Part shown: positions 13,985 through 30,757 of the stretch, in pieces | How positions within the stretch are numbered: position 1 is the stretch's first letter | Layout of the letters: each line of letters starts with the position of its first letter | Assembly: GCF_001651875.1 (NCBI RefSeq) | Contig: NZ_LNQB01000072.1 | Span: forward strand, 1 to 64,000 | Direction of reading: 5' to 3' | Source: Sinorhizobium saheli | GTDB lineage: Bacteria; Pseudomonadota; Alphaproteobacteria; Rhizobiales; Rhizobiaceae | Length of the DNA: 64,000 nucleotides | Notes under the pieces: model-generated | The model's database searches: none | Told to the model about the DNA's origin: nothing | Seen by the model: the letters and a program-made list of their open reading frames with translations, nothing else | Translations under genes and position numbers: made by a program

Positions 13985-14971
13985 ATGGAACTTATCGTTG
14001 CCCTTGGCCTGATCGTATTCAAGGTCGCGTTGCTGATCGCGATGCTGCTCCTCCTCCCCTTGCCGCTGACCTGGGTCGAACGCAAGATAGCCGGGCACAT
14101 GCAGCAGCGGATGGGCCCGATGCGCGTGGGGTGGCACGGGCTCCTGCAGCCGGTGGCGGACGGCATAAAGCTCCTGACGAAAGAGGACCATATTCCGGCC
14201 GAAGCCGACCGCTTCCTCTTCAAGCTCGCTCCGATCCTGGCGCTCGCGCCCCCCTTCGTGGTGTTCGTCGCGATTCCGTTCGGCGAAAGCATCTCGGTTC
14301 TTGGCAACGAGATCTCGCTCTACGTCTCGGACATGAACGTGGCGCTGCTCTTTGTCTTCTCCGTGATCGGGCTCGAGGTCTATGGCGTCATTTTCGGCGG
14401 CTGGGCCGCCAATAGCAAATATGCCGTCCTGGGCAGCCTCAGGACCTGCGCGCAGATGATCAGCTACGAGATCCCGATGGGCTTCGCGGTCATCGGCGTG
14501 GTGATGCTGGCGCAATCGATGAGCCTTCTGGACATCGTGCGTGCCCAGGCGGATGTCTGGAACATCGTCTACCAGCCAATCGGCTTCCTGGTGTTCTTCA
14601 TCGCCGGGCTCGCCGAGGCGCAGCGCATCCCCTTCGACCTGGCGGAGGCGGAAGGGGATCTCGGGGCCGGGTTCCACACCGAATATAGCGGCATCCGCTT
14701 CGCCTTCTTCATGGTCAGCGAATACGTCATCATGCTGCTGGTGTCGGTCCTGGCGGTGATCCTGTTCTTCGGCGGCTGGAACGGCGTGCTGATCCCCCTG
14801 CCGCCGCTCCTCTGGTTCGCCCTCAAGGTGGCGTTGTTCATCTATCTGTTCATGTGGTTCCGCTTCACTTTCCCGCGCTACCGCTACGACCAGCTGATGT
14901 CGATTGGATGGAAAGTCTTGCTTCCTCTGTCGATGGCGAACATAATCCTAACCGGTATTGCCTTCATCTGA
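13985..14971 (+). CDS. nuoH: NADH-quinone oxidoreductase subunit H
   Basis: A 328-residue membrane subunit with eight hydrophobic segments that forms most of the quinone chamber at the junction of the peripheral and membrane arms. Family blocks seen are TWVERKIAGHMQQRMGP, GWHGLLQPVADGIKLLTKED, ISYEIPMG and RIPFDLAEAEGDLGAGFHTEYSG (the last split here for length: RIPFDLAEAEGDL then GAGFHTEYSG). The ATG at 13985 follows AGGCGG by five bases. A TTGACA at 13901 may be a -35 element, but no clear -10 follows. NuoH and NuoI are transcribed toward the rest of the nuo genes rather than within them. Confidence 0.95.
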   Translation: MELIVALGLIVFKVALLIAMLLLLPLPLTWVERKIAGHMQQRMGPMRVGWHGLLQPVADGIKLLTKEDHIPAEADRFLFKLAPILALAPPFVVFVAIPFGESISVLGNEISLYVSDMNVALLFVFSVIGLEVYGVIFGGWAANSKYAVLGSLRTCAQMISYEIPMGFAVIGVVMLAQSMSLLDIVRAQADVWNIVYQPIGFLVFFIAGLAEAQRIPFDLAEAEGDLGAGFHTEYSGIRFAFFMVSEYVIMLLVSVLAVILFFGGWNGVLIPLPPLLWFALKVALFIYLFMWFRFTFPRYRYDQLMSIGWKVLLPLSMANIILTGIAFI

Positions 14972-15063
14972 TCCATGTCGGAAAGATGCGGCAATTCAAA
15001 GTGCTACGGCGCTCCTTGCGCGCCTGAGCGGGCGCGGCGCCGTGAGCTCGGAGCGGTGCGGCG

Positions 15064-15630
15064 ATGTTGCGCGCACGGGACAGAATTGGAACATGGATCG
15101 GCTGGGCCTTCTTCGCCGATCTTGCAAGCGCCCTGGCGTTGACTTTCGGCTACATGTTCTCCCGATCCGTGACCATGCAGTATCCGGACAAGGAGAAGTG
15201 GCTCCCCTATTCGCGTTATCGCGGTCATCACTTCCTGAAGCGCGACGACGAGGGCGAGATCAAGTGCGTGGCGTGCGAGCTCTGCGCGCGGATCTGTCCC
15301 TGCGACTGCATCGAAGTCGTCCCCTATGAGGACGAGAAGGGCAATCGTCACCCGATAAAATTCGAGATCGACACGGCCCGTTGCCTCTTTTGCGGGCTAT
15401 GCGAGGATGCCTGCCCGGCAGATGCGATCGCGCTCGGGCAGCAATATGAATTCTCGAGTTTTTCCTCGCGCGACCTGGTGATCGGGCGTGACGACCTGCT
15501 CGCCAAGCCCGGGAAGGCGCCGACCGGTGGCGGTGTGGTCGCCGCGCGCCTGAACACGAAGAAGGATGTGCTGGTCGAGACGAACGAGCCGCAGGGCTAC
15601 AACTGGTGGCGGAATATCCGGCGGACGTGA
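15064..15630 (+). CDS. nuoI: NADH-quinone oxidoreductase subunit I
   Basis: A 188-residue peripheral-arm subunit that carries clusters N6a and N6b. The two ferredoxin motifs are C68-C71-C74-C78 (CVACELCARICP) and C107-C110-C113-C117 (CLFCGLCEDACP). The N-terminal amphipathic part and HFLKRDDEGEIKCVACELCA are typical. The C-terminus ends with GYNWWRNIRRT, slightly longer than the standard form. It follows nuoH by 92 bases and is followed by a strong palindrome and a CBS-domain gene. Confidence 0.95.
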   Translation: MLRARDRIGTWIGWAFFADLASALALTFGYMFSRSVTMQYPDKEKWLPYSRYRGHHFLKRDDEGEIKCVACELCARICPCDCIEVVPYEDEKGNRHPIKFEIDTARCLFCGLCEDACPADAIALGQQYEFSSFSSRDLVIGRDDLLAKPGKAPTGGGVVAARLNTKKDVLVETNEPQGYNWWRNIRRT

Positions 15631-15658
15631 GCACGCCGCAGGCTGAGCCCGAGCGCTA

Positions 15659-15763: not shown

Positions 15764-16204
15764 ATGTTTGTCGGCGAAATCGTCAGGAACAAGGGTGTCG
15801 GAGTGATCGCGGTTACTCCCGATCGCACGATGGTGGAGGCTCTGCAGCTGTTTCGCGACAGGAACATCGGTTTCGTGATCGTCAGCGACGGGACCGGCGA
15901 ATGCCTGGGCACTCTCTCGGAGCGGGACTGCTGCAATGCGCTGGCGGAATTCGGGCCCGAGGCGGCGCTGATGCCGATCGCCGACGTCATGAACCGCAGT
16001 GTGGCGACCTGCTCGACCGAAGACTTGCTGCCCTTCGTGATGGCGATCATGACCCAGCGGCGCACGCGCCATGTGCTGGTCATGGATGGCGACTCCGCCA
16101 TCGGCGTCGTCAGCATCGGCGACGTGGTCAAGCACCGGCTCGATGAGGCGCTGCGCACGGAGCAGTACCTGCAGGATTACATATGCGGCACCAACTATCG
16201 CTGA
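15764..16204 (+). CDS. Tandem CBS-domain protein
   Basis: A 146-residue protein made of two CBS motifs: residues about 1-65 (VIAVTPDRTMVEALQLFRDR, IGFVIVSDGTGECLGTLSER) and 75-135 (MNRSVATCSTEDLLPFVMAI, TRHVLVMDGDSAIGVVSIGD). Such Bateman pairs bind adenine nucleotides or NAD and act as energy sensors. A strong AGGAGG site precedes the ATG. It ends 15 bases from the convergent nuoG stop and follows nuoHI on the same strand, so a role in sensing nucleotide or redox state near complex I is possible but only inferred. Confidence 0.88.
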   Translation: MFVGEIVRNKGVGVIAVTPDRTMVEALQLFRDRNIGFVIVSDGTGECLGTLSERDCCNALAEFGPEAALMPIADVMNRSVATCSTEDLLPFVMAIMTQRRTRHVLVMDGDSAIGVVSIGDVVKHRLDEALRTEQYLQDYICGTNYR

Positions 16205-16219
16205 GGGGTGCGGTGCACT

Positions 16220-18793
16220 TCAGGACGCGCCGTCGCGCGCGCTTTGGCCGCGGTCCTCCGGGCCAAGGGCGGCACTCGGCGGAGCGATATCCAAGACAGT
16301 CTCCGCCCTTCGAACATCCACCGGGCACGGATATTCACCCCGTCGCATCAGGCTGTTGAGACGCAGGGCTCTGTAGTTCTCGGGAACAAACACGAGGCCG
16401 CCTGGAAAGCGCCCGTTGATCTTCAGCTTCGCCGCCAGTTCACCCTGGGCCGAGCGCACGACCACCTGGTCGCCATCCGAAAGACCGAGCCCAGCGGCAT
16501 CCTCAGCGCTCATCTCGACGTAAGGGTCATCCGCGACCGTATTCAGGATTTCCGAGCGTTCGGACAGGTATCCATTGTGGAAGAGGCCGTTGCCGGTGAT
16601 CAGCATCAGCCGGCCTGCCGCTCTCGTCGCGGGCGGTGCGGCGAAGAATGCGTCAGCCGTCAGCGTTCCGGAACTCCTGGTGAATGCTCCGTCGGCGCCG
16701 AGCTCTTCCTGCCTCAGTCCGCGATAGGCCGGAAGCAGCCGGGCGATCTCGTCGAAGATTTCCCCCTGCGCCGATGGTTTCAGCACCTTGTCGCGGAGCG
16801 CCGCGACGAAATCGAATATCGCCAGATTGCCCCGCGCCTCGAAGGCGGCCTCACGGAATTTGCGGACCACCTGGATGCGGCCCTCATTATTGGTGAAGGT
16901 CCCTGCTTCTTCGCCATAGCCCGCCGCCGGCAGGACGACCTCGGCAAGACCCGCCGTATCCGTGAGGAAGGTATCCTGCACGATGAGGAGGTCGGCGGCG
17001 CCGAGCGCCCGGCTGATGAAATCCCGGTCGGGATAGGAGATCAGCGGGTCTGTTCCGACGATATAGAGCGCACCCATTTGCCCGCCGACACAGAGGTCCA
17101 GCATGGCATCGAGATCGGCGCCGGCTTCGGCGGGGAGTTCGGTGCCCCGGTCCTGCGCAAGTTCGGCGCATGCCGCGTCGGTTGCCGGCCATGGCCCCGG
17201 CACGGCGCCCATGTCCCAGGCGCCCATCTGGTTGGCACGGTCGAAGAGGAACTGCATCGCCGGCCCCTTGCCGAGCAGGCGGAGAAGCTGCAGCAGGCTG
17301 CTGAGTTGCTGCAGCGTCAGGCGCGCCTCCGGCAGTCTCAGAAGTTCGACGCTGACCAGCACGCTGACGCTGCGGCTCTTCTTGAGCTCGGCGACCAGGC
17401 GATCGATCCCCTCACCGCCGGCGCTCGCATCCCCAATCGTCGCGCGGATGTGCGCAAAGCCGTCGGCATCCGCCAGGAGCCCGGCCGCCACCGCCGCAAG
17501 GCTCGCCGCCTCCCCACCCGGGGGCACGCGAACCGCCACCCGAGCGTCGGCATCGAGCCGCGACGGCCGCGCCGAGAGCATGAGCAATCCGGTCTGCCGC
17601 CGTCGCGCGGCGTCGCGCAGCAGGTATTCGGTAACCGGGTTCTCCTCGGTCACGTTGCCGCCAACGACGAGGACGCAGTCGTTGCCGAGCACATCTGCGA
17701 GCGGCGCGCGCGTATAGAAGCCTGTCACCAGCGGGCCCAAGCTGTCGACGGGCGTCGACCAGCGCGACGAGCAGTCGATGTTGTTGGTGTGGAATACCGT
17801 CCGCATCAGCTTCTGGAATTGATAGAGCACCTCGTTGGGCAGGCGCGGCGAGATCAGCCCGCCAGCCGCCCTGCCCTCGACCGCCGACAGGCGCCGGCGC
17901 AGGTAGGCGCCCGCTTCCTCCCAGGAAACCGGCGTAAGCGCGCCGTCGCGGCGGATCATCGGTCGCTTGATGCGCTCGCGGTTCTCGATGAAGTCGAGCC
18001 CAAAGCGGCCGCGGACGCAGAGCGTTTCGCGGTTGACCCCGTGCTCCCAGTCCGAGCGGACGCGCATGAACTCGCCCTTGCGCGCGCCGACGGTGAGCTG
18101 GCAACCGGTGCCGCAATGCGGGCATACCGTATCGGTCTCGGCAAGGTCCCAGGGCCGTGCCTTGTAGCGGTAAGGAAAGCTCATCAGCGCGCCGACCGGG
18201 CAGACCTCGACGCAGTTGCCGCACTGGTCGCAACTCGCAAGACTGCCCTCGAATCCGGTGACGGCAGTGTCCATGCCCTTTTCGACCGTGCCCAGCGCCA
18301 CCGCGCCGACGACTTCCTCGCACATCCGCACGCAGCGCTGGCACTGGATGCAGCGGTTGACGTTCATGATGATGACGGGGCTCAGGCGGATGTCCTTCGA
18401 GTGGAACACGCGCTTCAGGTCGCGGAATTCGCTTTTGCGGGGGCCATAGGCCATGACCATATCCTGGAGCTCGCACTCGCCGCCCTTGTCGCAGATGGGG
18501 CAATCGAGAGGATGGTTGGCGAGCAGCATGTCGAGCATCGACGCGCGCGTTTCCTCGATCAGCGGCGTATTCGTCCTGACCACCATCCCCTCCGTGGCCA
18601 CTGTCGCGCAGGCCGGCTGCAGCCGCCGCTGCCCCTCGATCTCCACCAGGCACATGCGGCAGGAGGCGAGCGGCGGTAGGCGCTTCCAGTAACAGAAGGT
18701 CGGGATCTCGACGCCAAGACGCTCCGCGGCCTTCAGCACGGTCGAGCCCGCCTCAACTTCAAGCGTCTGTTCGTCGATCGTAACGCTAACCAT
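16220..18793 (-). CDS. nuoG: NADH-quinone oxidoreductase subunit G
   Basis: An 857-residue iron-sulfur subunit. The N-terminal 2Fe-2S domain uses C34, C45, C48 and C62; the His-coordinated cluster follows as H94-C98-C101-C107; then two 4Fe-4S motifs, CIQCQRCVRMC and CDQCGNCVEVCP. A fourth motif, CPHCGTGC with a later cysteine (LCVRGRFG), supplies the additional N7-type cluster seen in E. coli. The remainder is the molybdopterin-oxidoreductase-like domain without cofactor. The ATG at 18793 has GAGG upstream and starts the MVSVTIDEQ strand. Last gene of the long nuo series; its stop faces the CBS gene. Confidence 0.96.
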   Translation of the reverse strand: MVSVTIDEQTLEVEAGSTVLKAAERLGVEIPTFCYWKRLPPLASCRMCLVEIEGQRRLQPACATVATEGMVVRTNTPLIEETRASMLDMLLANHPLDCPICDKGGECELQDMVMAYGPRKSEFRDLKRVFHSKDIRLSPVIIMNVNRCIQCQRCVRMCEEVVGAVALGTVEKGMDTAVTGFEGSLASCDQCGNCVEVCPVGALMSFPYRYKARPWDLAETDTVCPHCGTGCQLTVGARKGEFMRVRSDWEHGVNRETLCVRGRFGLDFIENRERIKRPMIRRDGALTPVSWEEAGAYLRRRLSAVEGRAAGGLISPRLPNEVLYQFQKLMRTVFHTNNIDCSSRWSTPVDSLGPLVTGFYTRAPLADVLGNDCVLVVGGNVTEENPVTEYLLRDAARRRQTGLLMLSARPSRLDADARVAVRVPPGGEAASLAAVAAGLLADADGFAHIRATIGDASAGGEGIDRLVAELKKSRSVSVLVSVELLRLPEARLTLQQLSSLLQLLRLLGKGPAMQFLFDRANQMGAWDMGAVPGPWPATDAACAELAQDRGTELPAEAGADLDAMLDLCVGGQMGALYIVGTDPLISYPDRDFISRALGAADLLIVQDTFLTDTAGLAEVVLPAAGYGEEAGTFTNNEGRIQVVRKFREAAFEARGNLAIFDFVAALRDKVLKPSAQGEIFDEIARLLPAYRGLRQEELGADGAFTRSSGTLTADAFFAAPPATRAAGRLMLITGNGLFHNGYLSERSEILNTVADDPYVEMSAEDAAGLGLSDGDQVVVRSAQGELAAKLKINGRFPGGLVFVPENYRALRLNSLMRRGEYPCPVDVRRAETVLDIAPPSAALGPEDRGQSARDGAS

Positions 18794-18880
18794 CTTTCCT
18801 CGGCCCTTATCCAGCGTGGTCGTCCTGCTTTCATGCATGTCGTCGTCCCAAAGCCGCTGCACACATCCGGGCGCCATGCA

Positions 18881-20146
18881 TTAGTGATAGGGGCACCTCC
18901 GCGCCTCGATATGGGCGACGAATTCATCGCGGAAATGCTTCAGGGCGGCCCGCAATCCCATCGCCGCACCGTCGCCAAGAGCGCAGAACGTGTTGCCGAA
19001 AATGCCCTTGCAGAGCCTGTCCAGCTGCTCGAGATCGCCAGGGGCGCCCTCCCCGGCCTCGATCCGGCGCAGCACCTTCACGGCCCAGTTCAATCCTTCG
19101 CGGCACGGCGTGCACTTGCCGCAGGATTCGTGGTGGAAGAACTCGATGATCCGGGTGGCGACCTTGACCATGCAGGCCGTATCGTCGATCACGATGACGC
19201 CGGCCGAGCCGAGCATCGATCCCGCGGCAGCGAGCGAGTCGAAATCCATGCCCACGTCCAGCCCGCTCTCGGGGATGACGGGCGCCGAGACGCCGCCCGG
19301 GATCACCGCCTTGATCCGGCGTCCCGGCAGCGGACCGCCGGCATGGTCCTCGATGAGTTCACGCAACAGTATGCCCATCGGCAATTCATAGAGGCCGGGT
19401 TTGCGCACCTGGCCGCTCACGCAATAGAGCTTCGGGCCCGGGCTCTTGTCCGGGCCGATTCCCCGGAACCAGGCCGGCCCGCGCGTCACGATATGCGGCA
19501 CGCAGGCGAGCGTCTCGACATTGTTGATCACCGTGGGGCTGGCGTAGAGCCCGGCCACGGCGGGGAACGGCGGCTTCAAGCGCGGCTGCGCCCGCTTGCC
19601 CTCGAGCGACTCGAGCATCGCGGTCTCCTCGCCGCAGATATAGGCGCCGGCGCCGCAGTGGATGTGTACGGAAAAATTGAAGTCCGAGCCCAGCACGCCC
19701 CTTCCGAGATAGCCCTTCGCGTGCGCCTCGGCGATCGCCTGCTGAAGGCGGCGGATTGCCGTTACATATTCTCCTCGAACATAGACATAGGCGGTTTCGG
19801 CGCCGATCGCGTAGGCGCTGACCGCCAGCCCCTCGATGAGCTGGTGCGGATCACGCTCCATGATGATCCTGTCCTTGAAAGTGCCGGGCTCGCCTTCGTC
19901 GGCGTTGCAGCACAGGTATTTCGGCCTGTCGGTCCCCTTCGGCACGAAACTCCATTTCATGCCCGTCGGGAACCCGGCCCCGCCGCGGCCGCGCAGGTTC
20001 GACTGCTTGACGAGGTCGATGACTTCGTCCGGCGTGTGCTCGCCAAGCGCTTTCCTGAGCGCCTGGTAGCCGCCATCGGCCTCATAGGTCGACAGCAGAT
20101 GGCCGTCCGCTGCGTCGACATTCCTGAGAAGAACCGGCTCCGACAT
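18881..20146 (-). CDS. nuoF: NADH-quinone oxidoreductase subunit F
   Basis: A 421-residue subunit that oxidises NADH with FMN and carries the N3 4Fe-4S cluster. It has the glycine-rich nucleotide region GRGGAGFPTGMKW (about 53-65), the NADEGEPGTFKDR block, GAGAYICGEETA, and the cluster ligands in ESCGKCTPCREG plus a later cysteine in FCALGDGA. Length is standard. It begins four bases after the nuoE stop and ends 87 bases before nuoG. With nuoE and nuoG it forms the NADH-input module, so this complex accepts electrons from NADH, unlike the 11-subunit form. Confidence 0.97.
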   Translation of the reverse strand: MSEPVLLRNVDAADGHLLSTYEADGGYQALRKALGEHTPDEVIDLVKQSNLRGRGGAGFPTGMKWSFVPKGTDRPKYLCCNADEGEPGTFKDRIIMERDPHQLIEGLAVSAYAIGAETAYVYVRGEYVTAIRRLQQAIAEAHAKGYLGRGVLGSDFNFSVHIHCGAGAYICGEETAMLESLEGKRAQPRLKPPFPAVAGLYASPTVINNVETLACVPHIVTRGPAWFRGIGPDKSPGPKLYCVSGQVRKPGLYELPMGILLRELIEDHAGGPLPGRRIKAVIPGGVSAPVIPESGLDVGMDFDSLAAAGSMLGSAGVIVIDDTACMVKVATRIIEFFHHESCGKCTPCREGLNWAVKVLRRIEAGEGAPGDLEQLDRLCKGIFGNTFCALGDGAAMGLRAALKHFRDEFVAHIEARRCPYH

Positions 20147-20150
20147 GGCG

Positions 20151-20663
20151 CTATTCTCCCGGTGCCGGCGCGGAGGCGTGCTCCACGCTCGTCACGCGAC
20201 CTGCCGCAACGCGGAGGCCCTGCAGCAGCGCGTCCAGCCGCGCGACGTCGAGGTTGCCGTGGTAATCGTCGCCGACTTGCATCACCGGCGCCATCTCGCA
20301 GGCCCCGAGGCACTCGACGGTGGAAAGCGTGAACAGCCCGTCCGCAGTGGTCTCGCCCTTCCCGATCCCGAGGGTCGTTTCGAGGTGTTTCAAGAGGTCC
20401 TCGGATCCGCACAGCATGCAGGAGACATTGTCACAAAGCTGCAGGTGGAACCGGCCGACCGGCTCCGTATGGAAGAGCGTGTAGAAGGTCGCGAGCTCGA
20501 AGACCCAGATCCTCTCGACACCGAGAATCTCGGCGACCTCTTCCAGCACGGGACCGGGCAGATGGCCATGCTCCTCCTGCGCGATCAGCAGCGCTGGCAT
20601 GATCGCCGAGCGCCGGTCGGGATAGCGTGCCGCCGCCTCTTCGATCTTTTCGCGCATCGTCAT
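20151..20663 (-). CDS. nuoE: NADH-quinone oxidoreductase subunit E
   Basis: A 170-residue thioredoxin-like subunit binding the 2Fe-2S cluster N1a through C77, C82, C118 and C122 (LCDNVSC and ECLGACEMAP). The N-terminal helical bundle (YPDRRSAIMPALLIAQEEHG) and VATFYTLF-like segment are typical. It is shorter than the alphaproteobacterial housekeeping NuoE proteins that carry long C-terminal Lys/Ala-rich tails. RBS GGCAGG precedes the ATG; a second in-frame ATG is two codons in. Between nuoD and nuoF in the operon. Confidence 0.95.
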   Translation of the reverse strand: MTMREKIEEAAARYPDRRSAIMPALLIAQEEHGHLPGPVLEEVAEILGVERIWVFELATFYTLFHTEPVGRFHLQLCDNVSCMLCGSEDLLKHLETTLGIGKGETTADGLFTLSTVECLGACEMAPVMQVGDDYHGNLDVARLDALLQGLRVAAGRVTSVEHASAPAPGE

Positions 20664-20681: not shown

Positions 20682-21896
20682 CTACTTGTCCACCTCCGCC
20701 ATCACGGGGTCGATGCTGCCGAGCACGGCGATCATGTCCGCTAGGTAGCGGGCGTTGGTGACCCCGAACAATGCCTGAAGATTGACGAAGGACGGTGCCC
20801 TGACCTTCATGCGGAACGGCTTCGGCGATCCGTCGCTGATGATGTAGAACCCGAGCTCGCCCTTCGGCGCCTCGATCGCCGAATAGACCTCGCCCGGAGG
20901 GACGTCGAAGCCATAGGCCGACAGGTCGAAATGCTGGATCAGCGCCTCCATCGAGCAATGCACCCGTTCCTTGTCCACCGGGAAGGCGATCGTCGGCATG
21001 TCGACCTGGAACAACCCTTCCGGCATCTGCTCGATGCATTGCTCGATGATCCGGACGCTCTCGCGCATCTCGTCGACCCGGCACTGCCAGCGCGCGAAGC
21101 AATCGCCCTCCTTGCGGGTGATGACGTTGAAGGCGAGCCGGTCGTAGACTTCGTAAGGCTCGTCACGCCGAATGTCCCAGTCGACGCCGGAGGCGCGCAG
21201 GTTGGGGCCGCTCAAGCCCAGGTCGATGGCGTCCTCGGCGGAAATCACGCCGACGCCTTGCGTACGCTTCAGGAACACCCGGTTGTCCTCGACCAGCCGC
21301 TCATAGTCACGGATGCGGTTGGGGAAGATCGCGCAGAACTCCCTGATCTTCGGGAGGAATCCTTCCGGCAGGTCCTCGCGCACGCCGCCGACCCGGCAGA
21401 AGGACGTATGCATGCGCGCACCGGTAATCATCTCCATGAGATCCATGATCATCTCGCGCTCGCGCATGGCGTAAAGCAGCGCGGTCATGGCACCGAGGTC
21501 CATCGGCAGCGCGCCGGTGATCAGAAGATGGCCGGAAATCCGTGCGAGCTCCGCCATCATCACGCGGATATATTGCGCCCGGATCGGTGCCTCGATGCCG
21601 AGGAGCTTCTCCACCGCAAGCGCGAAGGCCAGGTTGTTCGACGGCGGGCAGACATAGTCGAGCCGGTCGGTCAGCGGGAAGATCTGGGTGTAGGTGAAGC
21701 TTTCCGCGAGTTTTTCGGTGCCGCGATGAAGATAGCCGATATGCGGATCGACGCGCTCGACGATCTCGCCGTCGAGCTCGAGGACGAGCCGGAGAACCCC
21801 ATGGGTGCTGGGGTGCTGCGGGCCGAGGTTGAGAAGCACTTCCTTGGTATTGAGCGCCTCGCCTTCCGGCCTCATGAGCTCGGTGACTTCGGTCAT
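20682..21896 (-). CDS. nuoD: NADH-quinone oxidoreductase subunit D
   Basis: A 404-residue subunit (49 kDa type) that forms the quinone-binding site with NuoB. Diagnostic blocks are NLGPQHPSTHGVLRLVLELD, HIGYLHRGTEKLAE, CRVGGVREDLPEGF, and the C-terminal IGSIDPVMAEVDK-like end (here VLGSIDPVMAEVDK). Encoded separately from NuoC, as in most bacteria outside enterics. GGAGAG lies just upstream of the ATG. A 77-base gap separates it from nuoC. Confidence 0.97.
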   Translation of the reverse strand: MTEVTELMRPEGEALNTKEVLLNLGPQHPSTHGVLRLVLELDGEIVERVDPHIGYLHRGTEKLAESFTYTQIFPLTDRLDYVCPPSNNLAFALAVEKLLGIEAPIRAQYIRVMMAELARISGHLLITGALPMDLGAMTALLYAMREREMIMDLMEMITGARMHTSFCRVGGVREDLPEGFLPKIREFCAIFPNRIRDYERLVEDNRVFLKRTQGVGVISAEDAIDLGLSGPNLRASGVDWDIRRDEPYEVYDRLAFNVITRKEGDCFARWQCRVDEMRESVRIIEQCIEQMPEGLFQVDMPTIAFPVDKERVHCSMEALIQHFDLSAYGFDVPPGEVYSAIEAPKGELGFYIISDGSPKPFRMKVRAPSFVNLQALFGVTNARYLADMIAVLGSIDPVMAEVDK

Positions 21897-22516: not shown

Positions 22517-23016
22517 GAGACGGCAGCCCGATCGAGAGCCGTGCCCGTCAGCGCGCGCGATCTCTTGATCTTCTCTTGAAGCATGAGGAAGCCGTGCATC
22601 AGCGCCTCGGGCCGCGGCGGACAGCCGGGCACATGCACGTCCACCGGCACGAAGGTCTCCGCTCCCTGCACCACGGCATAGGTGTTATAGACCCCGCCCG
22701 AGATGGCGCAGGTGCCCATGGCGATGACCCAGCGGGGCTCCGGCATCTGGTCGTAAAGCCGGCGCACCACCGGCGCGAACTTCCGCGTGATCGTGCCGGC
22801 GATGATCATCACGTCGGACTGCCGGGGTGACGGACGGAACACCACGCCGAACCGGTCGAGATCGTAGCGGGCGCAACCGGCCGAGATCATCTCGATGGCG
22901 CAGCAGGCAATCCCGAAGGTCTCGGGCCACAGCGCCGACCTCCGGCTCCAGCCGATGATGCTGTCGGCCGTGGTGAACAGGACGCTGTCGCGGATCGTGT
23001 CGTTCACTCCTCCCAT
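22513..23016 (-). CDS. nuoB: NADH-quinone oxidoreductase subunit B
   Basis: A 167-residue subunit carrying the terminal 4Fe-4S cluster N2, which passes electrons to quinone. The tandem cysteines C38-C39 are in [10 protein letters not shown]; the other ligands lie in MGTCAISGG and [12 protein letters not shown]. The ATG at 23016 lies 13 bases inside the 3' end of nuoA, so the two genes overlap; later starts would remove conserved N-terminal residues. Compact operon organisation supports co-translation. Confidence 0.95.
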
Positions 23017-23369
23017 TCCAGCGCTCCCTTCAGCCAGGCATAGGCAAAGCCCACGAGCAGCAACAAGATGAAGACGAACATCTCGATATAGCCTACGAGG
23101 CCGATCTCTTTCAGGACGACCGCCCACGGAAAGAGGAACATCGCCTCGACATCGAAAACCACCAACAGGATCGCGAGGATGAAGAACGGCACCCTGAAGC
23201 GGCCCCCGGCGGCCTCGCCTGCCGGATCCATGCCGCATTCATAGGGCAGGTTCTTAGCGCGATAGGGGTTGGACGGGCGCAACAGCGACGAGACGAAAAG
23301 CGTCGCCACCGCCACCAGAACAATTCCGGCGACCATGATGAGAACCGGCAGGAACTCAATTGCCGTCAT
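23004..23369 (-). CDS. nuoA: NADH-quinone oxidoreductase subunit A
   Basis: A 121-residue membrane subunit with three hydrophobic helices. The conserved loop [20 protein letters not shown] contains the quinone-site cysteine region, followed by [20 protein letters not shown]. The ATG at 23369 is preferred over an upstream GTG at 23387. About 190 bases separate it from the nuoN stop, the longest gap inside the minus-strand series, so a second promoter could lie there. Confidence 0.94.
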
Positions 23370-23561: not shown

Positions 23562-25001
23562 CTACCCCCCGAACACCGATTGCTGGGCGAGCCCCAGAAA
23601 CCACGCGGGAAACAGGCCGATGCCGATCGTGCCGAGGGCGGTGACGGCAAGCGTGGCGCGGACGAGCGGCGTCAATGCCGGCTCGAACACCCTCTGGGGC
23701 TCGCGCATGTAGATCACCATGACGACGCGGATATAGAAATAGGCGGCGACGGCGCTCAACAGCACTGCGATCACCGCCAGCACCACGAAGCCGCGCTCGA
23801 CGAGCGCGGTGAGCACGTAGAACTTGGCGAAGAAGCCGGCCGTCGGCGGAATGCCGGCCAGCGAGAACAGATAGATGAGCATCAGAAGCGCGAGCCCGGA
23901 ATGCGACTTGCCGAAACCCGCGTAGTCGTCGATGACCTCGCCCGAGAAATCGCCGTTGCGCATCATGATGACGGCGGCGAAGATGCCGAGATTCATGAAG
24001 GCGTAGATCAGCAGGTAGAGCATCACGCTGGCGATCCCGTCGGCGCCGCCGGCCACGACGCCGAAAATGGCGAAGCCGGCATGGGCGATGCTGGAATAGG
24101 CAAGCAGCCGTTTGAAATTGTCCTGCACCAGCGCCACGAAACTGCCGACCGCCATCGTCGCCACAGCAATCAGCGCGACGATGATCCATGCATCCGAGGC
24201 CTGGACCAGCGGGTTGAGGAAGACCCTCAGGATCACCGCGAAGCCCGCCGCCTTGGGCCCCACCGACATGAAGGCGGTGACCGTCGTCGGCGCACCTTCA
24301 TAGACATCCGGCACCCACATGTGGAACGGTACCGCGCCGACCTTGAAGACGAGCCCCGCGACGATGAAGACCACGGCCAGCAACAAGGCGGGATCGAGCG
24401 GATCTTCGGTCACTGCCCGCGCCATCCCGTCAAGCTGCGTCGTCCCGGTGAGCCCGTAGACGAGCGACACGCCGTAAAGGAAAATCCCGGTCGAGACCGC
24501 GCCGAGGATCACGTATTTCAGCGCCGCTTCGTTCGAGCGTCGCTCCCGCCGCAGGAATCCGGTCAGCACATAGGTGCAGAGCACCATCAGTTCGAGGCCG
24601 ACGAAGATCGAAAGGAGATCGGTCGCCGAGGCCATGATCATCATTCCCGTAAGCGCGAAGAGCAGCAGGACGTAGTATTCGCTGCTGCCGATCCCTTCTA
24701 TGTCCGCATATTTTCGCGAAAGAAGGAACGTCAGGACCGTGGCGAGGTAGAACACGCACTTGAAGAAGGCCGCGAAGCGATCGGCGACGAACATGCCGGC
24801 ATAGGCGGGCCGCGCCTCGCCCGCCAGCATGAGTGTGCTCAAGGTCGCGATCAACACGACAGCGACCGACGCCCAGACGAGCAGATCTTCCTGCCCCTTC
24901 CGCACGAATTGTCCCGCAATCAGCAGGATGCAGGCCCCGCTGACGACCAGGATCTCCGGCAGGCTCGCCAGGACCGACTGCAAAAGCGCGGCGGCCGTCA
25001 T
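23562..25001 (-). CDS. nuoN: NADH-quinone oxidoreductase subunit N
   Basis: A 479-residue antiporter-like membrane subunit with 14 or so helices. The two residues central to ion movement are visible: the TM5 glutamate in FVGLELMVLCTYVLTGF and the TM7 lysine in SVGPKAAGFAVIL. It is one of four such subunits here. The start overlaps the nuoM stop by four bases and has GGGAG upstream. It ends the first half of the minus-strand series, with nuoA following. Confidence 0.93.
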   Translation of the reverse strand: MTAAALLQSVLASLPEILVVSGACILLIAGQFVRKGQEDLLVWASVAVVLIATLSTLMLAGEARPAYAGMFVADRFAAFFKCVFYLATVLTFLLSRKYADIEGIGSSEYYVLLLFALTGMMIMASATDLLSIFVGLELMVLCTYVLTGFLRRERRSNEAALKYVILGAVSTGIFLYGVSLVYGLTGTTQLDGMARAVTEDPLDPALLLAVVFIVAGLVFKVGAVPFHMWVPDVYEGAPTTVTAFMSVGPKAAGFAVILRVFLNPLVQASDAWIIVALIAVATMAVGSFVALVQDNFKRLLAYSSIAHAGFAIFGVVAGGADGIASVMLYLLIYAFMNLGIFAAVIMMRNGDFSGEVIDDYAGFGKSHSGLALLMLIYLFSLAGIPPTAGFFAKFYVLTALVERGFVVLAVIAVLLSAVAAYFYIRVVMVIYMREPQRVFEPALTPLVRATLAVTALGTIGIGLFPAWFLGLAQQSVFGG

Positions 25002-26473
25002 GGGCTGCTCCCGTTACCGTGCACCTGCACCAAGAGATGCTTCACCGAGGCGTCGATGATGCCGAGAAAGGGCTTCGGATAGAGCCCGACCCAAAGAACG
25101 AAGACCGCCAGCGGCAGGATCGCAACCAACTCGCGGCCGTTCACGTCGTGTATCTTGAACCGGGCGCGGGCGTCCGCGGGCCCTAGCGCGACTTTGCGAT
25201 ACATGCCGAGCAGATAAGCCGCGCCGAGCAAGGCGCCGAGAACCGCGGCGGCGCCGAAGGCCGGGCTGGCCGCGAACCCGCCCGTCAGCACCAGCAATTC
25301 GCCCACGAACGAATTCGTGCCCGGCAGCGCCATCGACGACAGGGTGAACAAGGCAAGAAACGCGGTATAGACCGGCGCCACCTTCATCAGCCCGCCATAG
25401 TCGGCGATGCTGCGCGTATGGGTTCGCTCGTAGATCAGGCCGACGAACAGGAACAATGCGCCGGTCGTCACCCCATGGTTGAACATCTGCAGGATGCCGC
25501 CCTCCAGACCGCGCAGGTTCAGCGCGAAGATCCCGAGCGTCACGAAGCCCATGTGGCTGATGCTGGAATAGGCCACCAGCTTCTTCAGATCGTCCTGCGC
25601 AAGCGCCAGAAAACCGCCATAGACGATCGCAAGCGCCGAAAGCGCCAGCATCAGCGTCGAATAATAGAGCGACGCGTCCGGCAGCATCGGCAACGAAAAC
25701 CGCAGGAACCCGTAGGCGCCCATCTTCAGGAGCACGCCGGCAAGAATGATGCTGCCGGCCGTCGGCGCCTGCACATGCGCGTCGGGCAGCCAGGTATGGA
25801 CCGGGACCATCGGCACCTTGACGGCGAAGGCGATCAGGAAAGCGAAGAACAGCCAGGACTGGACATGAAACGGCAAATCCCGCGCCGTCAGGGCGAGGAT
25901 GTCGAAGGTCTGGCCGCCCTGGAAATAGAGCACGATCACGCCGACCAGGAACAGGAGGCTGCCGGCAAGCGTGTAGAGGAAGAACTTGAACGCCGCATAG
26001 ACCCGGCCCTCCCCGCCCCAGACGCCGATGATGAGATACATCGGGATCAGCATCGCCTCCCAGAAGACGTAGAACAGGAAGAGGTCGAGCGCGCAGAACA
26101 CTCCCAGCATCAGCGCCTGCATGGAAAGCAGGCTGACCATGAACTCCTTCACCTTGCGGTCGATCGCGGCCCACGAGGCGAGCACGCAGATCCAGCCCAA
26201 CAGGGCGCTCAGAAACACAAAGAGCGCGCTGATGCCGTCGACGCCGAGCGCATAGGTGATCCCGAGCGCCGGCACCCATGGCCGCGTCTCGGTGAACTGC
26301 ATCTCATGGGTGGTGGTGTCGAAGCCGACCAGCATCGCGACCGCGAGGGCGAAATCGAGCAGGGTGAAGCCGAGTGCGATCCATCGCACCGCATCGTCGT
26401 TGCGCAGGAACATCAGGACCGCAGCACCGGCGGCGGGCAGGAAGACGATGAGGCTGAGCAGCGGCAACGTCAT
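24998..26473 (-). CDS. nuoM: NADH-quinone oxidoreductase subunit M
   Basis: A 491-residue antiporter-like subunit. It has the NuoM-type TM5 segment FYVFWEAMLIPMYLIIGVWG, TM7 lysine in GVLLKMGAYGFLRF, HTWLPDAHVQAPTAGSIILAG and FVGELLVL. A very strong GGGGGGAG lies before the ATG, nine bases after the nuoL stop. As in other complex I enzymes it would form one proton channel in the membrane arm. Confidence 0.95.
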   Translation of the reverse strand: MTLPLLSLIVFLPAAGAAVLMFLRNDDAVRWIALGFTLLDFALAVAMLVGFDTTTHEMQFTETRPWVPALGITYALGVDGISALFVFLSALLGWICVLASWAAIDRKVKEFMVSLLSMQALMLGVFCALDLFLFYVFWEAMLIPMYLIIGVWGGEGRVYAAFKFFLYTLAGSLLFLVGVIVLYFQGGQTFDILALTARDLPFHVQSWLFFAFLIAFAVKVPMVPVHTWLPDAHVQAPTAGSIILAGVLLKMGAYGFLRFSLPMLPDASLYYSTLMLALSALAIVYGGFLALAQDDLKKLVAYSSISHMGFVTLGIFALNLRGLEGGILQMFNHGVTTGALFLFVGLIYERTHTRSIADYGGLMKVAPVYTAFLALFTLSSMALPGTNSFVGELLVLTGGFAASPAFGAAAVLGALLGAAYLLGMYRKVALGPADARARFKIHDVNGRELVAILPLAVFVLWVGLYPKPFLGIIDASVKHLLVQVHGNGSSP

Positions 26474-26482: not shown

Positions 26483-28243
26483 CTATTGCCACACGACGGC
26501 GAAGACGGCAGTGGCCGCGATCACGCCGGCGATCATCGCCAGCGCGTAATGGGTCACGACGCCGGTCTGCAGCCGCCGCAGCACGCCGCCGCCATCGAGG
26601 ATCGAACGAGCGATGCCGTTTACCGCGCCGTCGACGGCGTTCAGATCGAGCCTGAGCCCCGCGCGCGCGGTCCCATGCAGGAAAGGCAGCGCCGCCGTCT
26701 CGGATACGCTGCTCACCGCCTTCTCGTAGCGCGCCAGCGGCCTTTCGGCGAACCACATGAAGGCGCGGGCGGCCTTGCGATAGAACCAGTCGGTATCGAG
26801 GCTGATCGTGTTCTCCGGGTCGAGCGCCCGGAGGAACAACACGAATCCCAAAGCGGTGAACATCAGGATTCCGAGGCTTTCGGTGACATGCGACCCGGTA
26901 TAGGGCTCGAAGTCGACCGGATAGGGCAGAAGCGCATAAAGCGGTCCCGGGAACACACCGATCGCGATGCAGAGCGCCGCCGCCATGCTCATCGCCACCA
27001 GCATGTTGCCCGGCGGCTCCCGCGCCTCCAGTTTCCGGTCCGTACCGAAGAACATGTAGTAAGGAAGCTTGAGGCCGGTGTGCAGGAACGTCCCGGACGA
27101 GGCCATCGTCAGCGCCAGCATCACCAGCGCCCGGTGATCCTGCCCGGCGGCAGCCACCACCATCGATTTGCTGACGAAGCCCGAGAAGAACGGGAATGCC
27201 GATATCGCGAAGGCGCCGACCATGTAGAGCGCCACGGTCAGCGGCATGGCCTTGTAGAGCCCGCCGAGCTCGGTGAGCTTGCGTCGTCCCGTGACGTGGA
27301 TCACCGCCCCCGCTCCCATGAAGAGGAGCGCCTTGTAGAGGATATGCGCGAAGGCGTGGCTGGTGGCGCCGTTCACCGCCAGTTCGGTGCCGATGCCGAC
27401 GCCCGCGACCATGTAGCCCACCTGACTGACGATGTGATAGGCGAGCAGCCGACGACAGTCGTTCTCGAGCACCGCGTAAACGACGCCGTAGAGCGCCATC
27501 ACCGTGCCAAGCCAGACCAGGAGCTCGGTACCCGGGAACACGCGTGCCAGCACATAGACGGCCGTCTTGGTGGTGAAGGCGCTCATGAACACCGCCCCGG
27601 TGACGGTCGCCTCCGGATAGGCGTCGGTGAGCCAGGCATTGAGCGGCGGGACCGCGGCATTGAGGACGAAGCCGAACAGGATCAGATAGGCGCCAAGGCC
27701 GAGGGGCCCTTCGATCGGGCCAAACAGCAGCGAGCCGGCGGACGCTCCATGCAGAAGGATGCCGGCAAGCAGGACGACCCCGCCCGTGACATGGACCATG
27801 AGGTAGCGGAACGCGGCGCGGATCGCCTGCCTGCTGCCCCTGGCGAAAACAAGGTAGGCGGAGGCGAAGGCCATGCCCTCCCAGAACAGGTAGAGGGTCA
27901 GGTAGTCGCCGGCGAACACTACCCCGAGCGCGCTGCCGACATAGACGAAGGCGGCCACATGCTGGCCGGCGCTGGTGAGGTGCAGGGCGTAGACCGTACC
28001 GATCAGCGCCATGATGGTGAAGACGGTCGCGAAGACGATGGCGAGCTTGTCGACCTTCGCGACGAGAACTTCATGCCCGATGAACCGCGCCGCGCCATAG
28101 CTGCCGGGCTCCATCGTCATGACGGCGAGGATCGCCATCAGCGGGATCAGCACGAGGTAGGCCTGCCGGATCGTGCCTCGAAGCCACGGGACCGGCAGGG
28201 CGCCGAGAATGAAGATGGCGGCCGGGTGGACGAAATCAGTCAT
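26483..28243 (-). CDS. nuoL: NADH-quinone oxidoreductase subunit L-like (with C-terminal lateral helix)
   Basis: A 586-residue antiporter-like subunit. The core has TM5 YLFWEGMAFASAYLV and TM7 SAFTTKTAVYVLAR with the expected Glu and Lys, and looks closer to MrpD/HyfB proteins than to typical NuoL. The C-terminal 130 residues carry the NuoL hallmark: a long amphipathic stretch, then NAVDGAVNGIAR, LRRLQTG and a last helix, THYALAMIAGVIAATAVFAV. About 90 residues lie between the last core helix and that final helix. RBS GAGGAC precedes the ATG, which overlaps the 84-residue gene by eight bases. Confidence 0.85.
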   Translation of the reverse strand: MTDFVHPAAIFILGALPVPWLRGTIRQAYLVLIPLMAILAVMTMEPGSYGAARFIGHEVLVAKVDKLAIVFATVFTIMALIGTVYALHLTSAGQHVAAFVYVGSALGVVFAGDYLTLYLFWEGMAFASAYLVFARGSRQAIRAAFRYLMVHVTGGVVLLAGILLHGASAGSLLFGPIEGPLGLGAYLILFGFVLNAAVPPLNAWLTDAYPEATVTGAVFMSAFTTKTAVYVLARVFPGTELLVWLGTVMALYGVVYAVLENDCRRLLAYHIVSQVGYMVAGVGIGTELAVNGATSHAFAHILYKALLFMGAGAVIHVTGRRKLTELGGLYKAMPLTVALYMVGAFAISAFPFFSGFVSKSMVVAAAGQDHRALVMLALTMASSGTFLHTGLKLPYYMFFGTDRKLEAREPPGNMLVAMSMAAALCIAIGVFPGPLYALLPYPVDFEPYTGSHVTESLGILMFTALGFVLFLRALDPENTISLDTDWFYRKAARAFMWFAERPLARYEKAVSSVSETAALPFLHGTARAGLRLDLNAVDGAVNGIARSILDGGGVLRRLQTGVVTHYALAMIAGVIAATAVFAVVWQ

Positions 28244-28490
28244 AATAGTCCTCGCGCCGCATGAGCCCGCCCTGATGGCCGAGGAACTTGGAAACGAATA
28301 TCAGCAGCACGCAGGAGACGAAGCCGTACACGGCCGACCAGCCCGGAAGGCGCTCCCATGGATACTCGGCGTGTTCGCGGGGGACCAGGAAGTCGGCGAT
28401 GACGATCAGCACGAGCACCAGATAGAACAGGCGGCGCCGCTGCCTCGCATGTTCCTCGTCACCAAAGAAGTCGACGATACGCTTGATCAT
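28236..28490 (-). CDS. 84-residue two-helix protein of the complex I locus
   Basis: A small protein: polar N-terminus MIKRIVDFFGDEEHARQRRR, hydrophobic segment LFYLVLVLIVIADFL, a conserved-looking loop PREHAEYPWERLPGWSAVYG, a second hydrophobic segment FVSCVLLIFVSKFLG, and a cytoplasmic tail ending MRREDYYD. Its start overlaps the stop of the preceding antiporter-like gene (ATGA), and its own end overlaps nuoL by eight bases, so it is translated inside the complex I operon. It has no counterpart among the 14 standard subunits. I recall similar short proteins beside MrpD-like antiporter genes, but cannot name a family. Confidence 0.85.
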   Translation of the reverse strand: MIKRIVDFFGDEEHARQRRRLFYLVLVLIVIADFLVPREHAEYPWERLPGWSAVYGFVSCVLLIFVSKFLGHQGGLMRREDYYD

Positions 28491-29950
28491 CTGACCACTC
28501 CGTTCGCGAGCGTGAGAAAATAATCGGGAAAAATGCCCATCAGCACCGACAGGAAGGCGGTCGCGACCAGCGGCACCGTCACCAGCGGAATTTCGCGCAC
28601 CGTCGCGTGCCCCTCGCCGCTCTCCGCCTCGAAGAAGGCGGAATAGCTGACCGGCAGGAAATAGGCGGCGTTGAGGACCGAGCTCGTCAGCAGCACGAGC
28701 AGGAATGCGACCTGCCCGGCCTCCACCGAACCCTCGGCCAGATACCACTTGCTGACGAAGCCTGCCGTCGGCGGGATGCCGATCATGGAGAGCGACGCGA
28801 CGAAGAATGCCCCCATCGTCCAGGGCAGCCGCCGGCCGATGCCGGCCATGTCGCTGATCTTGCGCTTTCCCGAGGCGCAATAGATCGAACCGGCGCAAAA
28901 AAACAGCGTGATCTTGGAAAAGGCGTGCGCGGCGATGTGGATGATCCCGCCGACCATGGCGACCGGCGACAACAGCACTGCGCCGAGGACGATGTAGGAG
29001 AGCTGGCTGACCGTGGAATAGGCGAGCCTCGCCTTCAGGTCATCGCGCGTCAGCGCATAGACCGAGGCCATCAGGATGGTGAACGAAACCAGATAGGCCG
29101 TGGCGATGCCGAGCCCAAGGTCGCCCACGAGCCCGACGCCGAAGACGTTGAAGATCACCCGCAGCACGCAGAAAACGCCCATCTTGACGACGGCCACTGC
29201 ATGCAGGAGCGCGCTGACGGGTGTCGGCGCCACCATCGCTGCCGGCAGCCAGGCGTGCATCGGCATCACCGCCGCCTTGGCGAAACCGAAGAGATAGCAG
29301 AAATAGACGACCGTCAGCAGCGCCGGCGAGGCATCGGCGCCCGCCAACAGTCCGCCCGCCCTGAAATCGAGCGATCCGGCGATGTGGTATGTCAGCGCCA
29401 GGGCGGCGAGAAGAACGCTTTTCGAGGCGCCCATCAGGTAGACGAGGTACTTGCGGCTGCCCGCCCATCCCTCCTCGTCCTCGTGGTGGTAGACGAGCGG
29501 ATAGGTGACGAGGCTGAGCACCTCGTAGAAGATCACCAGAGTGAACAGATTGGCGGAAAAGGCGCCGCCGACAGCCGCCGCGAGGCTCAAGGCGAAGCAG
29601 GCGTAGAAGCGGGTCTGCGCATGCTCGTTCAGGTGCCGCATGTAACCGATCGAATAGACCGCGGCCACGATCCACAACAGCGACGATACCGTGGCGAACA
29701 CCATGCCGAGCGCGTCGACACGGAAAGCCAGGTCGATTCCGGGCAGGATCTCGAACAGCCGCAGATCGACGGTCCCGCCCGCCAGAACCGTCGGTGCCAT
29801 GGAGGCGACGATCGCGAACATGAGGACCGCGGCCACGGGCGAGACGAGGTCGCGCAGTTTCTCGCGGTTGTGCAAGAGAAGGACCGAAAGGGCCGCCAGA
29901 GAGGCGACGGCGACGGCTAAAAGCGGCCGGATTGATAGCACCGGGTCCAA
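28487..29950 (-). CDS. Extra antiporter-like (NuoM/MrpD-type) subunit
   Basis: A 487-residue polytopic protein of the proton-conducting membrane transporter family. TM5 reads VIFYEVLSLVTYPLVYHHE, TM7 HAVAVVKMGVFCVLR, and HAWLPAAMVAPTPVSALLHA and FSKITLFFCAGSIY carry the other conserved polar positions. There is no C-terminal lateral helix. The start is TTG at 29950, with AAAGGA seven bases upstream overlapping the nuoK stop. As nuoL, nuoM and nuoN are also present, this is a fourth pump-like subunit. It could instead function as an MrpD-like antiporter, but no other mrp genes are nearby. Confidence 0.88.
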   Translation of the reverse strand: MDPVLSIRPLLAVAVASLAALSVLLLHNREKLRDLVSPVAAVLMFAIVASMAPTVLAGGTVDLRLFEILPGIDLAFRVDALGMVFATVSSLLWIVAAVYSIGYMRHLNEHAQTRFYACFALSLAAAVGGAFSANLFTLVIFYEVLSLVTYPLVYHHEDEEGWAGSRKYLVYLMGASKSVLLAALALTYHIAGSLDFRAGGLLAGADASPALLTVVYFCYLFGFAKAAVMPMHAWLPAAMVAPTPVSALLHAVAVVKMGVFCVLRVIFNVFGVGLVGDLGLGIATAYLVSFTILMASVYALTRDDLKARLAYSTVSQLSYIVLGAVLLSPVAMVGGIIHIAAHAFSKITLFFCAGSIYCASGKRKISDMAGIGRRLPWTMGAFFVASLSMIGIPPTAGFVSKWYLAEGSVEAGQVAFLLVLLTSSVLNAAYFLPVSYSAFFEAESGEGHATVREIPLVTVPLVATAFLSVLMGIFPDYFLTLANGVVR

Positions 29951-29954
29951 GCCG

Positions 29955-30263
29955 CTATCCTTTCATCATGGTCACATCGTCGACCTTGAGGGTGGACTTG
30001 TTCCTCACGAGGGCGACCAGGATGCCGAGGGCGACGGCAACCTCCGCCGCGGTGATTGCGATGACGAAGATCGCGAAGACCTGTCCGCGGAAGTCGTCGT
30101 AGTAATAGCGCCCGAAGGCGATGAAATTGATGTTGACCGAGTTGAGCAGCAACTCCAGCGACATCAGCACCACCAGGATATTGCGCCTGAGAAGCACGCC
30201 CGCAGCTCCGATCACGAAGAGGACGACCGCGAGCGAAATGTACCACCAGAGTGGAACCATCAT
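29955..30263 (-). CDS. nuoK: NADH-quinone oxidoreductase subunit K
   Basis: A 102-residue subunit with three helices. The two conserved membrane glutamates are in [17 protein letters not shown] and [16 protein letters not shown]. The first of two adjacent ATG codons overlaps the nuoJ stop (ATGATGG), a coupling arrangement. Length is standard. Confidence 0.95.
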
Positions 30264-30757
30264 CCCGACTCCTTGCGCGCCAGCACGATCGCACCGACGA
30301 GCGCCGCCAGCAGGATGACCGAGGCGACCTCGAACGGCAGGAGATAGTCGGCGAAAAGTGTCGTGCTGAGCGCTCTGATCTCGCCGCCGCGGGTGGCGAC
30401 GGGCTCGGTGACCGAAAAGCGCTCGCTCAACAGCACCAGGACCAGCATCTCGACCCCGAGCAGGACGAGCAGCACGAGTGCCGGCAGGTTGCCGCCCGGG
30501 ACGAACCGCTGCAGCACCGCTTCGCGCACATCGATCATCATGATCACGAACAGGAACAGGACCATGATCGCGCCGACATAGACGAAGATCTGGATGACCG
30601 CGAGCAACGGCGCCTCGAGGAGGACGAAGATCGCCGAGATCTGCAGGAAGCAGGCCATCAGCGCCAAGGCGCTGTGAACGGGGTTTCGCGCCAGGACCAC
30701 GGTCAGGGCCGTGATCACGGACACCGTGGCAAACAGAAGAAAAAACCCCTGATCCAT
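30260..30757 (-). CDS. nuoJ: NADH-quinone oxidoreductase subunit J
   Basis: A 165-residue subunit with five helices; TM3 contains [20 protein letters not shown], the hallmark segment whose pi-bulge couples quinone chemistry to pumping. The ATG at 30757 is used; an in-frame GTG at 30775 is less likely. It is the first gene of the minus-strand nuo series, so the main promoter should lie in the 300-base gap upstream, shared with the divergent SMR pair. Confidence 0.93.

Follow-up and report, generated by a model that had tools for sequence, protein, structure and literature searches.

The first 64,000 nucleotides of contig NZ_LNQB01000072.1 of Sinorhizobium saheli (assembly GCF_001651875.1), hereafter the window, carry a complex I operon in which the single nuoL gene has been replaced by three overlapping genes, designated X1, S and X2. 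The locus encodes the further NADH:quinone oxidoreductase that is already in print for rhizobia as 'green complex I'. Taken as a whole, the explanation preferred here (with a probability of roughly two in three) is that X1 serves as the NuoL core of this enzyme and X2 as a modified terminal module with a NuoL tail. To the green type, the present analysis adds that X1 belongs to the NuoL/MrpA type rather than to the MrpD type, that X2 possesses a NuoL-type tail, that X2 contains an asparagine (Asn) in transmembrane helix 7 (TM7), and that the small protein S is encoded between the two. The features concerned are the following:

28487..29950, minus strand: X1, 487 amino acids, NuoL/MrpA-type antiporter core without lateral helix (NF006236, 843 bits)
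28236..28490, minus strand: S, 84 amino acids, two hydrophobic stretches, overlapping X1 and X2
26483..28243, minus strand: X2, 586 amino acids, extra, presumably terminal antiporter-like subunit carrying the lateral helix (NF009310, 783 bits)
27791..27793, minus strand: codon of X2 His151 in TM6 (alignment)
27659..27661, minus strand: codon of X2 Asn195, aligned with the TM7 lysine (alignment)
26579..26791, minus strand: X2 residues 485-555, predicted lateral helix of 71 residues, amphipathic (AlphaFold2 model)
26495..26641, minus strand: X2 residues ~535-583, putative NuoL-type lateral-helix end and terminal anchor helix (40.6 bits with a hidden Markov model (HMM) of NuoL tails)

Identity of X1 and X2

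The antiporter-like domain PF00361 is found in X1, X2, NuoM and NuoN. The four antiporter-like genes of a preliminary description of this DNA are thereby confirmed, as are its nuoE, nuoF and nuoG (by open reading frames (ORFs) and synteny). The roles of the genes come out differently. The gene at 28487-29950 (X1) had been regarded as the extra one and the 586-residue X2 as NuoL. With the NuoL model NDH_I_L, X1 reaches 190 bits and X2 only 146 bits at a cut-off of 407.5; both thus fall far below the cut-off, and the NuoL of a canonical Nuo14 complex is absent. A second NuoM, as in the 2M complex I, is not found either: the operon contains one NuoM, and X1 and X2 lie outside the NuoM group.

In a tree of 34 antiporter-like proteins, X2 groups with free-standing X2 proteins (100/100) and X1 with free-standing X1 proteins (100/100), while the X1 group joins NuoL and MrpA at 99/96. 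The preliminary description had named a grouping of the fourth subunit with free-standing Mrp proteins among its refuting conditions; it is this grouping that was observed. X1 also shares with NuoL and MrpA a TM8 histidine (His) and a one-residue insertion, which are absent from X2, NuoM and NuoN. A TM8 motif confined to MrpA-like proteins has been described (PMC4938563). Because of the tree grouping and the TM8 signature, X1 appears to hold the place of the NuoL core, so that X2 would be the added module. X2 is annotated elsewhere as Na+/H+ antiporter subunit D. The label 'two MrpD-like subunits' is, judged from these groupings, imprecise. The structure-database matches (the best 60 of 79 and the best 60 of 101) comprise complex I, NDH, Mrp, MBH/MBS and formate hydrogenlyase chains, and the green type is named for none of them.

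The TM7 position of X2

In an alignment of 76 antiporter-like proteins with E. coli NuoL, NuoM and NuoN, the TM5 glutamate (Glu) is kept throughout. At TM7, a lysine (Lys) is present in X1, NuoM, NuoN, NuoL, the Mrp proteins and X3, the third antiporter-like protein of free-standing loci. X2 Asn195 aligns with K229 of E. coli NuoL, and Asn was found here in the window X2, in three other Rhizobiaceae X2 and in 3 of the 17 free-standing X2. The TM5 Glu-TM7 Lys ion pair is thus present in X1, NuoM and NuoN, but not in X2. Both residues had been claimed for all four subunits; the Glu stands, the Lys does not.

The TM7 Asn is kept in all 120 of the closest homologs of X2. For X1, the closest homologs have Lys in 117 cases, and the remaining 3 escaped the search pattern. 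Among 126 X2 proteins taken from loci, Asn occurs in 18/18 with nuo context; the others have Asn in 75/108 and Lys in 33/108. In these residue counts, and in the tail counts below, the 108 proteins are 'other' by default, as no nuo context was seen around them. The counts are to be read as 'at least', and since the sample began from an Asn-type sequence, the ratio of 75:33 is biased towards Asn. In the X2 tree (which holds 96 of the 126 X2 rows), the Lys-type X2 fall together in one nested clade. The idea that Asn reflects decay of the complex I copy was rejected, as Asn is the commoner residue in the sampled X2 and Lys is confined to that one nested clade.

The TM7 residue is paired with residue 151 in TM6, which is His in 93/93 Asn-type X2. 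In the Lys type it is Gln or Lys in 31/33 and His in 2. Because the Lys type is one clade, this pairing counts as about one event, not as many. X2 retains Glu122, Lys226, Lys304 and Lys359, and with them the lysines of TM8, TM10 and TM12. In Nqo13 of Paracoccus, the K232Q substitution at TM7 abolished the NADH:ubiquinone activity of the purified enzyme (PMC9802314), and modelling indicates that the Glu-Lys ion pair tunes proton transfer (PMC11496545). Since the TM7 Lys is absent, the homologous Lys is essential in Nqo13 and the ion pair tunes the transfer, X2 is probably not a canonical pump, and the loss of the pair argues against counting a fourth one.

The C-terminal tail and lateral helix of X2

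The tail of X2 consists of two kinds of sequence. HMMs were built from thinned tail sets (26 of 31 NuoL, 29 of 30 other X2 and 13 of 16 nuo-context X2). The first 50 residues of the nuo-context X2 tails score a median of 13.0 bits with the free-standing-X2 HMM and -1.6 with the NuoL-tail HMM. For the last 45 residues this is reversed, with 1.6 bits for the free-standing HMM and 36.6 for the NuoL HMM (13/13). Scored over the whole tail against the NuoL HMM, all 18 nuo-context X2 lie at 35.3-49.8 bits, whereas the 108 others stay at or below 8.4. As controls, 53 other antiporter-like proteins gave at most 3.8 bits, and the window tail, shuffled 500 times, did not exceed 7.4. An HMM built from 13 NuoL tails from outside the Alphaproteobacteria still gives 34.8-45.2 bits on the 18 nuo-context X2 and at most 7.7 on the others, and the NuoL-type piece of the window is up to 47-49% identical to out-of-class NuoL over 47 residues. 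In a Thermus structure, the lateral helix of subunit L touches M and N, and the final helix reaches N at its boundary with A, J or K (PMC3046159). The simplest reading would be that X2 arose when an Mrp-type module was joined to the docking end of a NuoL, with the longer helix gained in the same step.

The AlphaFold2 model of X2 has an overall predicted local distance difference test score (pLDDT) of 86.6. Its last core helix (450-469) and final helix (563-585) bear out the ~90 intervening residues of the preliminary description. The predicted lateral helix spans 71 residues in the window X2 and 44 in a free-standing X2 (L186) modelled likewise. The distance from the D-W-x-Y motif to the TG motif is 74 residues in 16/16 Rhizobiaceae complex I X2, 50 in 30/31 NuoL and 45 in E. 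coli, so that the spacing exceeds that of NuoL by 24 (the start of the motif was placed manually in the NuoL of L110). In the larger set of 126 X2, the motif search mis-called the L157 tail as long. In the structure comparison, X2 residue 504 falls on residue 561 of E. coli NuoL; this register is shared by 14 of the 16 listed E. coli rows, whose ends lie at X2 504-506 and NuoL 561-562.

The small protein S

S, which was overlooked in the preliminary description, matches no Pfam or NCBIfam family. Among 38 S sequences from both settings, G56, C60 and Y83 are invariant, and F51, F57, K68 and Y82 are kept in at least 90%. The C-terminus carries an E/D-x-Y-Y-D-like motif, and S adjoins X2 in complex I as well as in Mrp-type operons. 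It is probably an undescribed subunit of both systems, and a role as structural partner of X1 and X2 seems likely.

Organization of the locus

The other genes of the locus are:

13985..14971, plus strand: nuoH (PF00146, NCBIfam NuoH)
15064..15630, plus strand: nuoI (TIGR01971, 165 bits)
15764..16204, plus strand: CBS-domain protein adjoining nuoI, not a complex I core gene (PF00571, two stretches)
16220..18877, minus strand: nuoG with an extra C..C...C...C motif (synteny, motif)
18881..20146, minus strand: nuoF (ORF, synteny)
20151..20663, minus strand: nuoE (ORF, synteny)
20682..21896, minus strand: nuoD (ORF, synteny)
21974..22516, minus strand: nuoC (ORF, synteny)
22513..23016, minus strand: nuoB, likely start 23016 (translation, synteny)
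23004..23369, minus strand: nuoA, likely start 23369 (translation, synteny)
23562..25001, minus strand: nuoN (TIGR01770, 519 bits; with NuoN in the tree, 100/100)
24998..26473, minus strand: nuoM (TIGR01972, 646 bits; with NuoM in the tree, 100/100)
29955..30260, minus strand: nuoK (PF00420)
30260..30775, minus strand: nuoJ (PF00499)

On the minus strand, from 30775 to 16220, the order is J K X1 S X2 M N A B C D E F G. X1 (start codon TTG as listed) overlaps S by 4 bases and S overlaps X2 by 8, with gaps of 4 bases from nuoK to X1 and of 9 from X2 to nuoM. MrpB, C, E, F and G were not found in the operon, which contains only nuo genes, X1, S, X2 and the CBS gene (ORFs below 80 amino acids other than S were left unscanned). 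The CBS-domain gene, directly after nuoI, is a possible regulator.

The window NuoG contains a CPHCGTGC..C motif (a Cys pattern only), which we take to be of the N7 type; the pattern was not found in the other NuoG of the same genome. That NuoG belongs to another complex I on contig C58, of which nuoD (cut by the stretch) and nuoE to nuoN were found, with nuoA-C beyond the stretch examined. Further antiporter loci are located on contigs C73 and C99. By Pfam, the neighbours in the window include lexA, glutamine synthetase, mfd and recG (9910-10629, 52222-53631, 57858-61367 and 61804-63909). The neighbourhood is thus of the housekeeping kind, whereas the X2 of S. meliloti 1021 is located on pSymA.

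Distribution and evolution

The X2 protein occurs in 114 plasmid records, 99 of which are 80-90% identical (from Sinorhizobium, Rhizobium, Ensifer and a few others). In the Rhizobiaceae sample, 31 of 247 genomes contain an X2 above the family cut-off. Of these loci 30 were read, and nuoM lies directly downstream of X2 in 16 (the window included) and not in 14. S directly precedes X2 in all 16, and X1 precedes S in 15, the sixteenth being cut by a contig end. The X1-S-X2-nuoM arrangement is beyond chance. The order J K X1 S X2 M N was read in the window and in three Rhizobiaceae loci (20 kb each).

In the phylum sample, X2 lies above the cut-off in 21/398 genomes. Twenty loci were read (20 kb), of which three, all from Rhizobiaceae, are nuo operons and 17 (from 15 genomes) are free-standing. 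The latter all contain X1, with S in 13 (in a fourteenth by ORF comparison) and X3 in 16. In the seven free-standing loci with listed ORFs, small mrp-like genes are found upstream; from gene order and size, these are presumably mrpE, F, G, B and C. Among 80 named loci, two are nuo operons, namely L184 (Nitrospiraceae) and L185 (Desulfobacteraceae, in the order K X1 S X2 M N G). Both are green-type complex I operons outside the Rhizobiaceae, with the same NuoL-type X2 tail. X3 is present in 71 of the 78 others, which come from Pseudomonadota, Thermodesulfobacteriota and further phyla, and mrp-like genes usually accompany it. No X3 or mrp gene was seen in the remaining seven (L122, L132, L136, L144, L162, L169, L172), some of which are short contigs. 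L123 (1-11584) contains nuoLMN, three opposite-strand ORFs and then a reduced set of an mrpC-like gene, X3, X1, S and X2, with no other mrp-like genes. A nuo/mrp hybrid was rejected for it, as the two sets are separated by these three ORFs on the other strand.

Of the three main X2 branches, two contain nuo-context X2, with the NuoL-type tail in both. In L186 and L187 the core of the free-standing X2 forms the sister of the X2 from rhizobial complex I, while X1 groups with that of other Pseudomonadota. This pattern suggests recombination between the X1 and X2 lineages.

Comparison with known complexes

As in the window, the green complex I of Rhizobiaceae is encoded by a second operon beside a standard one, with two Mrp-like subunits in place of NuoL and an extra FeS motif in NuoG (PMC7415380, PMC9040806, PMC4967309). 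The additional 4Fe4S cluster in NuoG is a feature of this type (PMC4967309), which is reported to be up-regulated in symbiosis (PMC7415380). The Mrp-like pair, the standard Nuo14 operon in the genome and the NuoG Cys pattern are all found here, and no difference in gene content was seen. No published title among the matches listed concerns the TM7 Asn, the NuoL tail of X2 or S; the original papers on the green and 2M types may mention them.

The 2M complex I likewise combines four antiporter-like subunits with a lateral helix of increased length (PMC6606698, PMC9040806). It has, however, a second NuoM and a lengthened NuoL, whereas the window locus has one NuoM and no NuoL. The lengthening here (+24 by motif, +9 to 14 from TM to TM) lies in X2, which is not NuoL, and unlike that of 2M it seems to be a fusion of two tail kinds. 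Complex_I_3 of Manganitrophaceae (PMC9040806) shares an MrpD-like pair related to the rhizobial one, but it has five antiporter-like subunits and a further 26-residue helix insertion that is described as absent in rhizobia. The three-antiporter Mrp-type operons contain the same X1 and X2 (42-54% identical) and S (26-49%). They differ in being free-standing, in the third antiporter-like gene, in the small mrp-like genes and in the shorter modelled X2 helix of L186. Canonical Nuo14 (E. coli and contig C58 of the same genome) shares the other subunits and the NuoM and NuoN families; it has one NuoL with a TM7 Lys and no S.

Proposed mechanism and alternative explanations

In the proposed mechanism, NADH would enter at NuoEFG and quinone would be reduced at NuoB/D/H. 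The ensuing pulse would pass NuoN and NuoM and then enter X1 at the place of the NuoL core, as suggested by the tree and the motifs. NuoN, NuoM and X1 have the full Glu-Lys pair; therefore, the three canonical pumping modules are all present. X2 would add one more module as the tip; it would be a terminal subunit of the Mrp type that has exchanged its own end for that of a NuoL. Its NuoL piece would dock where N adjoins JK, just as the NuoL end does in an ordinary complex I. The lateral helix, which the models make longer by roughly one module, would strap four modules, in the presumed order, and not three. The most likely role of X2 is that of a modified module for exit or gating, acting via another titratable group, with His151 as candidate. 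The expected H+/2e would be at or a little above 4; gene number does not give it. Only tentatively can it be added that the chimera splits the jobs of NuoL, with X1 as pump core and X2 as strap and tip that lacks the TM7 lysine and switches via His151.

Several observations weigh against this explanation. The TM7 Asn is not unique to complex I; since it also occurs in the 75/108 other X2, it may be compatible with transport. The lateral-helix region of the X2 model is of low confidence (block pLDDT 43-71), and 2 of the 16 E. coli rows continue along the helix with an offset of 52 and root-mean-square deviations of 7.2 and 9.1. The linker from the centre of TM15 to that of TM16 exceeds the NuoL median of 102 by only 9-14 residues (the other NuoL of the same genome was mis-measured in this set, at 160; it is included in the range but hardly moves the median). 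A global profile alignment of X2 and NuoL puts D-W-x-Y elsewhere, with an insertion of ~14. About 16 free-standing X2, mostly deltaproteobacterial, are also long-tailed, and their operons are three-antiporter ones where seen. Lastly, the nuo-linked X1 form one clade (support 97) among free-standing X1, suggesting one origin. The nuo-linked X2 cores, by contrast, reject one clade in the approximately unbiased test (p-AU 1.4e-69; 0.0017 without L186/L187; 38 and 32 X2 rows). One origin of the nuo-linked X2 was accordingly not retained, as the X1 and X2 trees disagree.

The longer lateral helix of the preliminary description thus holds by motif, models and structure register, and shrinks by the TM15-TM16 distance and the profile alignment. 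That there is no extension at all, as those distances and the absence of the insertion of PMC9040806 might suggest, was not adopted. The longer helix was kept because the structure comparison supports the motif register and the models give 71 against 44 residues. On balance, an enlarged arm with a longer strap is supported. Helix length as a law for module number was rejected because of the long-tailed free-standing X2. These are L162, L165-L169, L172-L174, L176, L178-L182 and L190, with tails of 99-128 residues and no similarity to NuoL; L188 is also long-tailed and without the motif.

The same four modules and longer helix could be those of an enzyme in which X2 is a fully working fourth pump; five protons would then be moved per NADH, a yield that has been proposed for other enlarged forms of complex I. 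X2 keeps the TM5 Glu and the lysines of TM8, TM10 and TM12, and such forms are drawn with extra translocation in PMC9040806. This is nevertheless unlikely, as the TM7 Lys is replaced by Asn in 18/18 nuo-context X2 and the corresponding Lys of Nqo13 is indispensable (PMC9802314). The 'more protons per NADH' of the preliminary description does not follow, because the extra module lacks that lysine. It had also suggested sodium pumping, and an arm that transports Na+ (or K+), either in addition to H+ or in its place, would agree with the grouping of X1 and X2 with free-standing Mrp homologs. This ancestry is the sole support here. X1 is of the NuoL/MrpA type, X2 is without the TM7 lysine and NuoM and NuoN are canonical, which makes such transport improbable. 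Still more improbable is a separate cation/proton antiporter, X1-S-X2, that merely shares the operon. In most other loci read, the module is indeed free-standing with X3 and small mrp-like genes; the window operon, however, holds nuo genes, X1, S and X2 and no nuoL, the gene order is constant, and the NuoL-type tail marks 18/18 nuo-context X2 and 0/108 others.

A further alternative concerns the history of the tail. If the NuoL-type tail were ancestral and had been lost in free-standing X2, no fusion at recruitment would be needed, and tailed nuo-context X2 in two of the three main branches would be explained. This would require about three losses on the X2 tree. The free-standing tails are, moreover, mutually alike (the 29 tails used to build their HMM score 39-121 bits with it), and among the free-standing X1 the nuo-linked copies come out as one clade. 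An ancestral tail is therefore possible but rather doubtful.

Implications

It is debated whether one proton is moved per antiporter-like subunit or whether all protons leave via the terminal subunit (PMC9802314). With X1 as NuoL core and X2 as modified terminal module, three complete modules and a terminal one that is by nature without the TM7 lysine, together with a strap apparently lengthened through fusion, would offer a direct handle on this debate. Some free-standing relatives have Lys at the N195 position (33/108). If the chimera indeed splits the jobs of NuoL, it would be a natural test of exit via a terminal ND5-type subunit: either the lysine is dispensable for exit, or exit is not at the tip. 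If the graft is true, complex I would have gained a module by moving the docking end of its old terminal subunit onto a new one.

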